25,830 nucleotides of DNA from the IMG/VR virus record IMGVR_UViG_3300030101_003003, positions 1 through 25,830 of that record; one strand, given 5' to 3'. The notes beneath the pieces were generated by a model that worked only from the letters and a program-made list of their open reading frames with translations, did no database searches and was not told the origin of the DNA. This document shows, piece by piece, positions 12,333-22,212 of the stretch. How positions within the stretch are numbered: position 1 is the first letter of the stretch; each line of letters opens with the position of its first letter. Both the position numbers and the translations under genes were made by a program. Origin of the DNA: a virus.

Positions 12333-13046
12333 ATGTACCAGGTAAAAAACTATTTATTAAGCATGCAGTCGCATTGGATGATAAATCATACTACTTACCA
12401 AGCAGTGCAAGACTCGGTACCCAAGATTATAAAGTTTAAAGCTGGCGAAGGTGTAGAGGCCATGGGTAAAACTCCTGTGCATGATGTGGTGAAAAAAATC
12501 CACCCCGATATATATAAGGTTCCTTTGTTTCGTAGAAAGTTTTGTTCGTTGCTTATGAAGGAAATAGAACACATGAAGCGAGAGATAGGATTTCAACCGA
12601 ACGAGGATGAAGACGAGCTCCGCCAGATCCCTGAGATCGTTTTGCGTGAACACGCGCCAGAGCTCTATCGCAGTATGTGGTTCGTGGTCCAGACTGTACT
12701 GAATCCTATATTCAACGCCATCTGGCAAAGAGACTGTGCGGACCCGGCTACCATACAGATAGCTAACTACAATTTGAAAGATAAGAAACAAGGATCCTGG
12801 CATCACGACGAAAGCTCGGACATATCCGTCGTGGTTCCTTTGAACACTGGCAAGTATGTTGGTGGAGGGACCGCCTTTCATAACTATGGGGAGATAGCGC
12901 CATTACCCACAGGCCATGCACTGTTTTTCCCCAGCTTCACACATCTACACAAAGGTTTGCCGGTCGAATCTGGTGATAGATACCTGTTGGTTTTTTGGCT
13001 GAACAACGCCAAAAGAATCGTCGATTTGTACGAAGAAATAATCTAA
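12333..13046 (+). CDS. 2-oxoglutarate/Fe(II)-dependent oxygenase, prolyl-hydroxylase-like
   Basis: 237 residues. The C-terminal half carries the double-stranded beta-helix signature: SWHHDESSDISVVVPLN at about 155-171 supplies the first iron ligands (H157-x-D159), GGGTAF at 177-182 is the conserved turn, and HKGLPVESGDRYLLVFWL from about 206 supplies the distal histidine (H206) and the Arg (R216) that binds 2-oxoglutarate. Members couple decarboxylation of 2-oxoglutarate to hydroxylation of a protein, nucleic acid or small molecule. The N-terminal 140 residues do not match anything I know and may set substrate choice. It lies alone behind a candidate leaderless promoter and before the small-gene train at 13137. 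It is only distantly similar to the second oxygenase at 20639. Confidence 0.8.
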   Translation: MYQVKNYLLSMQSHWMINHTTYQAVQDSVPKIIKFKAGEGVEAMGKTPVHDVVKKIHPDIYKVPLFRRKFCSLLMKEIEHMKREIGFQPNEDEDELRQIPEIVLREHAPELYRSMWFVVQTVLNPIFNAIWQRDCADPATIQIANYNLKDKKQGSWHHDESSDISVVVPLNTGKYVGGGTAFHNYGEIAPLPTGHALFFPSFTHLHKGLPVESGDRYLLVFWLNNAKRIVDLYEEII

Positions 13047-19063: not shown

Positions 19064-19573
19064 ATGGGAAGACCAAGAAAGCAAAAAGATAAAATAGTAG
19101 AAACGCCAGTACAGTTTGATAAGGATGAAGAACATGGCTTGACCGAAATGCAAGCCAGCTTCGTCTGGCACTACACCGAAGGTGCATGCGGTATGACCGA
19201 AGCTGCCAGGAAAGCTGGGTATGAGTTTCCAAGTCAGTCAGCAAACAAACTATTAAATGGTAAGGACTTTCCTAATGTGGTTAAGGCCATCCGGATCAAA
19301 CAAGACGAGCTCGCAGAGAAGTATGCGATAACTCCACAGAAGACCGGGACAATGTTGTGGAAGGTCATGGAGAAAGCATACGACAATGGACAGTTTAATG
19401 CTGCGGTTTCTGCGATCAAGGAGCTCAACCAGCTTGCCGGACTATCGATCAATAGATCTCAGAACATTAATATCAATGCTAACCTGGAGAAGATGTCCAG
19501 AGAGGATATTAAGGAAAGATTGGGCCAGCTTTTAGGAGCAGACAAAGGCAACTACTCGCCAAAAGATAAATAG
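19064..19573 (+). CDS. terS: Terminase small subunit
   Basis: 169 residues. Residues 25-65 (GLTEMQASFVWHYTEG, then CGMTEAARKAGYEFPSQSANKLL) form the helix-turn-helix-like DNA-recognition region of the Terminase_2-type small subunits, which bind the packaging site and load the large subunit. The middle (residues 75-125) is helical (VVKAIRIKQDELAEKYAI, MLWKVMEKAYDNGQFNAA) and would form the oligomer core. The C-terminus (NINANLEKMSREDIKERLGQ) is typical of the subunit's large-subunit contact. GGAG seven bases upstream supports ATG 19064. Unusually, the large subunit does not follow; a terminator and a non-coding spacer do. Confidence 0.85.
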   Translation: MGRPRKQKDKIVETPVQFDKDEEHGLTEMQASFVWHYTEGACGMTEAARKAGYEFPSQSANKLLNGKDFPNVVKAIRIKQDELAEKYAITPQKTGTMLWKVMEKAYDNGQFNAAVSAIKELNQLAGLSINRSQNININANLEKMSREDIKERLGQLLGADKGNYSPKDK

Positions 19574-19916: not shown

Positions 19917-20348
19917 ATGCCTATCAACAGCAGAAATAAGGGAGCTCAGTTTGAGCGTGATATAGCGAAGATCCTAAATGGTTTCTTCCAGGACAACGGC
20001 ATCGATTACGAAACGAAACGTAACCTGGACCAATACCAACAAAAAGATCTATGCGATCTAAACATCCCTTACCATTCTGTCGAATGTAAGCATTACAAAG
20101 AAGGAGATTGGCTCAAGTCCGCTTGGTGGAATCAAGTGTGCGAGAGCGCAGAACATAACATCCCGGTTCTCATTTTTAAGTTCAACCGCAAACCCATTCG
20201 TGTGTGCATACCGCTATACGCGATCAACCTGGAGTGGCCCAGGGAGAACGACAAAATCTGCATCATGTCTATTGAAGACTGGTTAGACACGCTGAAAAAG
20301 AATTGGAGCGAATACGGAGAGAATGAGCATGGATTATCAGTTCAATAA
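19917..20348 (+). CDS. Holliday-junction-resolvase-like PD-(D/E)XK nuclease
   Basis: 143 residues. The N-terminus NSRNKGAQFERDIAKILN matches the first helix of Hjc/VRR-type resolvases with catalytic Glu13. LCDLNI (Asp near 47) and SVECKHY (Glu56-x-Lys58) complete the PD-(D/E)XK site, and KSAWWNQVCESAEHNIPVLI provides the conserved second helix plus strand. Members cut four-way or branched DNA; phages use them to resolve recombination intermediates before packaging, which fits its location next to the terminase gene. It overlaps the SET-domain gene by 20 bases. No Shine-Dalgarno precedes the ATG. Confidence 0.8.
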   Translation: MPINSRNKGAQFERDIAKILNGFFQDNGIDYETKRNLDQYQQKDLCDLNIPYHSVECKHYKEGDWLKSAWWNQVCESAEHNIPVLIFKFNRKPIRVCIPLYAINLEWPRENDKICIMSIEDWLDTLKKNWSEYGENEHGLSVQ

Positions 20349-20658
20349 GTTTTACTACAAGCCGTTACCGGAAAACCTTGTGGTCCGCGAAAGTGATATA
20401 GAAGGATCCGGAGTCTTTGCGAAAGAAAGGATTGAAGGTCATAAAGATCTTGGCATGACTCATATCAAGGTTCCGATTATCAAAGGTTACATAAGAACGC
20501 CTCTTGGTGGTTTTGTGAACCATTCTACAGATCCTAATTGCTGTTTGATTGAGAAAATGGATTGGGATGATTACAGAATATTTAATATTTACACGATGAG
20601 GACCATCCGAGCTGGTGAGGAGCTTACTTTGAACTACCATGCAGACGAAGACGAGTAA
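20329..20658 (+). CDS. Minimal SET-domain methyltransferase
   Basis: 109 residues from ATG 20329, nine bases after GGAG; an ATG two codons upstream (20323) is only three bases from it. The SET motifs occur in order: VVRESDIEGSGVFAKERI with G-x-G at 26-28, FVNHSTDPNC with N-H-S-x-x-P-N-C at 64-71, and GEELTLNY at 96-103. These bind S-adenosylmethionine and build the pseudoknot active site that methylates lysine side chains. Size is like the viral vSET (119 residues); there are no pre- or post-SET cysteine clusters. It overlaps the resolvase gene by 20 bases and the oxygenase gene by 20 bases, so the three are co-expressed. The substrate is unknown. Confidence 0.85.
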   Translation: MDYQFNKFYYKPLPENLVVRESDIEGSGVFAKERIEGHKDLGMTHIKVPIIKGYIRTPLGGFVNHSTDPNCCLIEKMDWDDYRIFNIYTMRTIRAGEELTLNYHADEDE

Positions 20659-21199
20659 TTTACCCAGGCACGGGGCCACAAGCCTGTTGCTGGACCGGGA
20701 GGAAGTAGATCTATTCCTGGATTACCTGGTAGAAACAGATCCGGAACCCGCAAAAATACATGACCAGGGCGAAAACACGGAAAAAAAAGCCGTTCGGGAC
20801 GCAGAAATCCGGTTTATAGACCAAAATCAGGAGCGTTTGTATAAGATCCTTAATAAAATCGCCGTTTCAGCCAATAAATACTTCAAATACGACATAAATG
20901 GCATAGAAAAAGCCCAAATAATCACCTATAAAGCCCCTTCTAGCGGCTATCAGTACCACATGGACATAGGACCAGAGGGCACAGCTGCAAACCGCAAGAT
21001 AAGTATGAGCTTGCTTCTAAACGATAATTTTGAAGGCGGCGAGATATGCTTTAGGTACAACGAGAATGAAATGTGCAAGCGGCCTGAAACAGGTGAAGCT
21101 GTGATATTTAGCTCCTTCTTGAGTCACAAGGTCAAACCGATTACTAAGGGAGAAAGATTTGTAGTTGTTGCCTGGTTTACCGGGCCGCCTTTTCGTTAG
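20639..21199 (+). CDS. PKHD-type 2OG-Fe(II) oxygenase
   Basis: 186 residues. The signature is complete: YQYHMDIGPEG with H107-x-D109 as iron ligands, RKISMSLLLNDNFEGGEICF as the central strands, GEAVIFSSFLSHKVKPI with distal H163, and ERFVVVAWFTGPPF with R173 for 2-oxoglutarate. The ending VVAWF.GPPFR and the 'L-N-D-x-F-x-G-G-E' turn match the PKHD family of protein hydroxylases. The N-terminal 90 residues are charged and helical. Its ATG lies inside the last codons of the SET gene. Its stop overlaps the 3' end of a minus-strand gene by 23 bases. It differs from the oxygenase at 12333 in length and sequence. Confidence 0.85.
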   Translation: MQTKTSNLPRHGATSLLLDREEVDLFLDYLVETDPEPAKIHDQGENTEKKAVRDAEIRFIDQNQERLYKILNKIAVSANKYFKYDINGIEKAQIITYKAPSSGYQYHMDIGPEGTAANRKISMSLLLNDNFEGGEICFRYNENEMCKRPETGEAVIFSSFLSHKVKPITKGERFVVVAWFTGPPFR

Positions 21200-21678: not shown

Positions 21679-22212
21679 TCAATAATTCCTTGAAAATTTT
21701 ATATCGCCTTTGTAATTTCGTTGATAATGTATTGCACCAACCATAAACCCAACAGGAAACCCATGAGTATTACCAGTGCCTAAATTAACAATTTCTTTTA
21801 CATCGCCATATTTCATAACTGATTGGTCGTTGCCTTTTGATTTGAACAATTTAGAAAAGGGCACAAACATCACAACATTGTCTGCAACTTCAAATGCCTT
21901 GTCTAAAAAATCATCGAATATACTATAAGGGGGATTAGTAATTATCCAATCGACTTTACCATTGTAATTAAAGAAATCTTTGCCTTCTGATATTTCACAC
22001 CAATCAACATCTGCAACCTCTACAGATAAACCTTTGAGTCCATGATTGTATTCTTGCATTGCTTTATAAAATGCACCATCGCCACGACAAGGTTCTAACA
22101 TTTTGCCTTGTGGTCCAAAATGTTCAACTATCCACTTTGCTGTGTAATAGGGTGTCATAACAACATCCTGCTTTGTTGCTCGACCTGTTTTGTTCGCAGT
22201 TGTTGGTTTCAC
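21679..22212 (-). CDS. N6-adenine DNA methyltransferase
   Basis: 177 residues from a GTG at 22212, which has GGAGG just upstream. MTPYYTAKWIVEHFGPQ (about 19-35) is the motif X region, KMLEPCRGDGAFYKAM contains the S-adenosylmethionine-binding motif I, and DWIITNPPYSIFDDF at 88-102 carries the N-P-P-Y catalytic motif of N6-adenine enzymes. The protein is short and no separate target-recognition domain is seen. No restriction nuclease is adjacent, so it is an orphan methylase. Such phage enzymes protect DNA from host restriction or alter its regulation. The target sequence cannot be read from here. Confidence 0.85.
   Translation of the reverse strand: MKPTTANKTGRATKQDVVMTPYYTAKWIVEHFGPQGKMLEPCRGDGAFYKAMQEYNHGLKGLSVEVADVDWCEISEGKDFFNYNGKVDWIITNPPYSIFDDFLDKAFEVADNVVMFVPFSKLFKSKGNDQSVMKYGDVKEIVNLGTGNTHGFPVGFMVGAIHYQRNYKGDIKFSRNY

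Follow-up and report, generated by a model that had tools for sequence, protein, structure and literature searches.

A minimal SET-domain gene overlapping a 2OG-Fe(II) oxygenase gene in a probable marine tailed phage

The locus and its two predicted enzymes

We begin by considering the genes around the SET gene in the window, by which we mean the whole stretch of viral DNA analysed here (25,830 nucleotides). At the head of the locus is a gene resembling that of a terminase small subunit (TerS, 19064 to 19573, plus strand), assigned from phrog_51 (8e-8), from a Terminase_2 match just below the cut-off and from gene order. It is followed by a RusA-like / PDDEXK_15 nuclease gene (19917 to 20348, plus strand; Pfam PDDEXK_15 3e-13, phrog_244 1.5e-19, and a conserved neighbour), the gene of a single-domain SET protein of 109 amino acids (20329 to 20658, plus strand) and that of a 2OG-Fe(II) oxygenase of 186 amino acids (20639 to 21199, plus strand). 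The order TerS-RusA-[SET]-oxygenase is conserved. The first-pass annotation had the SET gene overlapped by 20 bases on both sides, and each overlap is exactly of that length: the 3' end of the RusA/PDDEXK gene runs into the SET gene at 20329 to 20348, and the bases from 20639 to 20658 (plus strand) are used twice, as the end of the SET protein (ADEDE-stop) and as the beginning of the oxygenase (MQTKTS). The TerS of the window has one weak match, to Pelagibacter phage HTVC027P, and the nearest isolates of its primase have unrelated hosts. Downstream on the minus strand (21679 to 22212) is the gene of a short DNA methyltransferase-like protein of 177 amino acids (phrog_799) with an NPPY motif, which covers part of a 458-position profile.

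The SET reading frame starts at the ATG at 20329; a start at another ATG in the same frame, at 20323, would lengthen the protein to 111 amino acids. All the core motifs first reported for it are present: the GxG motif as G26-S-G28, NHSTDPNC at residues 64 to 71 (N64-H-S-T-D-P-N70-C71) and GEELTLNY at residues 96 to 103 (G96-E-E-L-T-L-N-Y103), together with a family signature made up of RTPLGGF (56 to 62) and DWDDY (78 to 82). Pfam SET (PF00856) matches the protein at 40.6 bits against a curated cut-off of 22.4 (E=3.7e-10), and in PHROGs it falls into phrog_28741 at 5.8e-23, a group that carries no functional label. Across 64 diverse aligned relatives 16 columns are invariant, including G28, N64, H65, N70, E98 and Y103, while G26 and C71 are conserved in at least 90% of these sequences. 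The gene is under purifying selection, with a pairwise dN/dS of 0.03 to 0.09. Judged by the Pfam score, the 64 relatives and the dN/dS, the reading frame is a genuine gene, far beyond chance. A structure model had been proposed as a check on the SET fold. The AF2 model, with the 64-sequence alignment as input, has a mean pLDDT of 87.9 and an intact motif set, and its best fold matches (Foldseek/VIA) are MLL1 (Z 12.1), EZH2 and PBCV-1 vSET (Z 11.4).

As its motifs suggest, the protein would be a minimal protein-lysine N-methyltransferase, binding SAM through the GxG and NHS motifs and methylating lysine with Tyr103, which aligns with the conserved Tyr of GEELTYDY in MLL1 by sequence comparison. 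The residue two positions before the catalytic Tyr is the F/Y switch of SET enzymes. This position is taken by Leu101 (Leu in at least 90% of the 64 aligned members), which could leave the space needed for higher degrees of methylation. Only six residues (HADEDE) follow Y103, and the protein therefore has no post-SET zinc cluster; there is no Cys in this segment in any aligned relative. To close its lysine channel, the protein would then depend on dimerisation, on a partner or on the substrate, and a dimer or a partner may be required for activity, as the post-SET segment helps to close the channel in many relatives.

The oxygenase is assigned a P4H/PHD-like double-stranded beta-helix from Pfam 2OG-FeII_Oxy_3 (PF13640; 51.4 bits, cut-off 27, E=2.1e-13), from phrog_61 (2OG-Fe(II) oxygenase, 1.1e-27), and from its AF2 model and the fold matches of that model. 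The motif H107-x-D109, H163 and R173 are invariant in 27 aligned sequences. By alignment position, H107, D109 and H163 are predicted to form the Fe(II) triad and R173 to bind 2-oxoglutarate. This gene is under purifying selection as well (pairwise dN/dS 0.02 to 0.21). The AF2 model has a pLDDT of 80, with low confidence at about residues 109 to 117, beside the active site. A second phrog_61-type 2OG-Fe(II) oxygenase of 237 amino acids, a distant relative of the first, is encoded elsewhere in the window (12333 to 13046, plus strand).

The enzyme had been called a PKHD-type oxygenase in the first-pass annotation. The 2OG-Fe(II) oxygenase part of this name stands, but the PKHD part does not. By sequence the enzyme resembles both prolyl hydroxylases and PKHD enzymes. 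In the equivalog test for PKHD (PiuC/YbiX), NCBIfam PRK05467 gives 46.6 bits where the cut-off is 143, and the other models give 13 to 23 bits against cut-offs of 180 to 399. In fold, the best match is PPHD (4iw3, Z 18.1), a P4H acting on EF-Tu, followed by TaPHD (17.6), PHD2 (17.3) and SnoN (17.3), with the PKHD enzymes 3dkq (16.8) and PiuC (16.0) slightly below the prolyl hydroxylases. The score of SnoN, an epimerase and a 2OG enzyme without a protein substrate, is close to that of the P4H enzymes, which shows, at the level of modelled folds, that the fold by itself is insufficient to fix the substrate. The fold matches listed are prolyl hydroxylases and small-molecule 2OG enzymes, with no JmjC or AlkB demethylase among them, though a remote kinship may exist. 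On these model comparisons, the enzyme is best described as prolyl-4-hydroxylase/PHD-like, and neither as a demethylase nor as a PKHD (PiuC/YbiX) equivalog. It would probably hydroxylate proline in a protein.

Recurrence of the two genes, together and apart

The next question is how far the two genes go together. Loci were gathered from IMG/VR scans with both proteins and from phage records, 173 of them in a first round. After contig duplicates were removed, and with the window counted, there are 36 viral loci in which SET and oxygenase overlap. The oxygenase start lies inside the SET gene in all 36 and is always ATG, with an overlap of 8 to 29 bases (20 bases in 19 loci, 17 in eight, 8 in five, 29 in three and 14 in one). 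In the genomes without SET, the oxygenase begins where the RusA gene ends, or close to that point, and has no MxTKT leader; the leader is therefore coded by the SET-bearing cassette. Because it shares the start region of the oxygenase, the SET gene would allow the joint translation of both. The first-pass annotation had named two findings that would tell against it, the lack of a sound SET fold and an adjacency seen only in this contig. The modelled SET fold has its motifs intact and the adjacency extends to other contigs, so neither of the two was encountered.

The same survey of adjacency has another side. Of the 83 non-redundant contigs that carry the oxygenase in full, 35 have SET next to it, two have SET nearby and 46 have none within the fetched flanks. 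On the oxygenase tree the adjacent-SET state changes 12 times, at least seven of these on starred branches alone. SET without this oxygenase is found in Pelagibacter phage Kolga, in the Prochlorococcus phages P-SSM7 and P-RSM6, and in 76 of the 113 viral and phage rows of the SET tree, one of which (L025, scored as "other" because the contig end cuts its oxygenase) is a cut-off SET-oxygenase locus. An obligate pair, with both genes always together, is rejected by the 83-contig survey and by the many SET loci without oxygenase; as each gene is kept without the other, a functional pair is optional at best. In the SET tree the SET-oxygenase arrangement takes four changes (AU p = 0.059), by which neither a single origin nor several are established. 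In one locus (L006, 3460 to 4324), SET is 90% and the oxygenase 54% identical to those of the window with the same 20-base overlap. From this gap in identity, SET and its oxygenase partner are not strictly co-travelling, and the sequences suggest recombination near the SET/oxygenase junction. Neighbouring, even overlapping, genes do not by that alone make an obligate system.

These results bear on the earlier proposal of a writer beside an oxidising enzyme, when it is read as a writer-eraser pair in which the oxygenase strips the methyl groups put on by SET. Some 2OG oxygenases (JmjC) demethylate lysines, and the two genes are adjacent. Against this, the fold and sequence of the oxygenase match prolyl hydroxylases and not JmjC/AlkB demethylases, either gene occurs alone (the oxygenase is retained in the 46 contigs without SET), and opposing enzymes translated together would cancel. 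We regard such a pair as highly improbable.

A more substantial alternative is that the two genes adjoin by chance at an accessory-gene hot spot, held together by compact packing only and with no common target or pathway, which would be compatible with the same two enzyme classes. The interval also takes a PAPS-reductase gene, inserted between RusA and SET in three loci (L005, L008, L168), and large polyvalent proteins with a PBECR5 nuclease-like domain, which adjoin the oxygenase (L110, 4553 to 6289, and others); the latter are absent at this interval in the window and present in the near-identical L004. On other viral contigs the neighbours of SET are terminase, polymerase, helicase, tail or lysine-rich genes. 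Yet the oxygenase immediately follows SET in 35 of the 37 SET-bearing contigs of this locus, the PAPS-reductase insert never splits SET from the oxygenase, and L006 retains the overlap despite its unequal identities. With points on both sides, chance neighbourhood is a reasonable contender that falls somewhat short of an even chance.

The reading that we prefer, and hold to be probable, is that a marine tailed phage here encodes two genuine and separate accessory enzymes that modify proteins, and that the two genes are coupled in translation. The oxygenase would be a long-standing member of the TerS-RusA locus of this phage group, and SET an accessory gene that may have been repeatedly gained and lost in one fixed slot before it. 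In the infected cell, each enzyme would most likely act on an abundant protein of the host (or of the phage), or on a few of these.

The SET family in other settings and its possible substrates

We turn our attention to the SET genes without oxygenase. Small basic proteins make up 42% of their direct same-strand neighbours versus 8% beyond three genes, and the families concerned include DUF6321, DUF5872-like and phrog_27331. These belong to a shuffled lysine-rich cassette of a widespread marine phage group (L028 to L060, for example L033, 1097 to 2781), with SET sometimes inside. It is conceivable that SET methylates such small, lysine-rich, histone-like phage proteins, bound to DNA or in the virion, and an archaeal SET that acts on a nucleoid protein is a precedent. 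In this group SET lies 14 to 71 bases from phrog_27331 proteins, with DUF5872/DUF6321-type genes nearby in varying order. When the scan is reversed to start from the basic proteins, SET is found in only 11 of 79 and one of 79 loci, and thus it visits the cassette and is not a regular member; in the lineage of the window such genes do not adjoin SET. This candidate, strong from the SET-centred loci, is weakened by the reverse scan, and we consider it quite doubtful.

The family is also present in marine bacterial assemblies, some of them long contigs with cellular neighbours, and the oxygenase family is absent from the fetched flanks of all the SET loci from genome collections. In three Flavobacteriaceae/Bacteroidetes assemblies (L184, L186, L199) a SET of the same family is inside an apparent arginine biosynthesis operon; the order in L199, read by eye, is argC-like, SET, proC-like, argD-like, argF-like and argB-like, and the gene sizes in L184 and L186 are equal to these. 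In four Porticoccaceae/HTCC2207-type assemblies (L183, L185, L187, L188) a chromosomal SET gene is directly 3' of a fabA/fabB-like pair and is followed by peroxiredoxin- and SSB-like genes on the opposite strand; this order was read by eye in L187, and the gene sizes in the other three are equal. A divergent form is seen in Rhodoferax phage P26218 (L022, 3419 to 4294), where a 291-residue protein annotated as tail fibre-like has a C-terminal SET-like domain with 28% identity and the motif RTPLGRYTNHS.

The oxygenase leads to a different candidate, in which a single host protein receives both marks. The oxygenase would hydroxylate a Pro and SET would methylate a nearby Lys, with the switch-I loop of EF-Tu as the best guess, and the marks would tune, protect or reprogram translation in infection. 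Within switch I of EF-Tu, Pro54 and Lys56/57 are separated by a few positions. In favour of this candidate are the P. putida P4H crystallised with EF-Tu, which is the solved structure nearest in fold to the oxygenase, and the SET-oxygenase overlap in every one of the 36 loci. EF-Tu is a substrate of PPHD, which hydroxylates one of its prolyl residues (PMC7864055), and methylation of Lys56 in E. coli EF-Tu makes GTP hydrolysis slower (PMC6401129). Against it, the score of PPHD is within 1 Z of those of PHD2, TaPHD and SnoN, the oxygenase is without SET in 46 of the 83 contigs, and SET is without the oxygenase in many genomes. Dual marking of EF-Tu is an unlikely account by our estimate. It does give a concrete target hypothesis, to which the repeated overlap of SET with a P4H-like hydroxylase points. 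If true, it would give, to our knowledge, the first phage SET substrate and the first case of a phage hydroxylating proline in a host protein. Lysine methylation by SET is known mostly from eukaryotes and secreted bacterial effectors, and the substrates of a minimal SET family spread across marine bacteria and marine phages (with Pelagibacter, Prochlorococcus and uncultured organisms as hosts) are a testable question.

Comparison with known systems

The pair had been put forward as an undescribed system. For the domain itself this no longer holds, since public structure models already annotate single-domain proteins of tailed phages as SET; for the function it stands, in that the literature searched (with most subscription journals outside its scope) gave no description of phage SET function or of a SET-oxygenase pairing, and nothing pertinent on prolyl hydroxylases in cyanophages. 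In HTVC023P-type pelagiphages, 2OG oxygenases are reported as auxiliary genes with no SET domain mentioned (PMC9599517). The oxygenase of the window has homologues in 374 phage records, mostly of cyanophages, and it is in the same PHROG as the phrog_61-type 2OG-Fe(II) oxygenases of cyanophages and pelagiphages, at less than 60% identity. Its closest solved fold, the EF-Tu prolyl hydroxylase PPHD of Pseudomonas putida (PDB accession codes: 4iw3, 4j25), aligns over 173 residues at Z 18.1. The identity is 20%, the window enzyme is phage-borne, and the score is tied with those of other PHD/P4H enzymes.

The SET protein is of one family with the phage RTPLGGF proteins of phrog_28741 (Kolga gp27, P-SSM7 PSSM7_204 and P-RSM6 CPXG_00131), which are 43 to 49% identical and annotated as hypothetical; unlike the SET gene of the window, theirs are not adjoined by a 2OG oxygenase. 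Among solved structures, the MLL/SET1-type SET domains (MLL1, PDB accession codes: 7u5v, 5f5e) are the best match, at a profile E of about 2e-9 and Z 12.1, with NHSxxPNC and GEELTxxY in register. The window protein differs from them in being stand-alone and much shorter, without the post-SET zinc cluster. A viral counterpart in design is PBCV-1 vSET (chlorovirus A612L, an H3K27 methyltransferase; PDB accession codes: 3kma, 1n3j), likewise a minimal single SET domain of about 105 to 119 residues, which acts on histone H3 as a dimer. The two have the same fold (Z 11.4, rmsd 2.4 A over 89 residues) with only 27% identity, and the host domain of the window phage differs, with no eukaryotic histones and no histone H3. 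Unlike vSET, the window protein has the RTPLGGF/DWDDY signature, Leu at the F/Y switch and an adjoining oxygenase gene.
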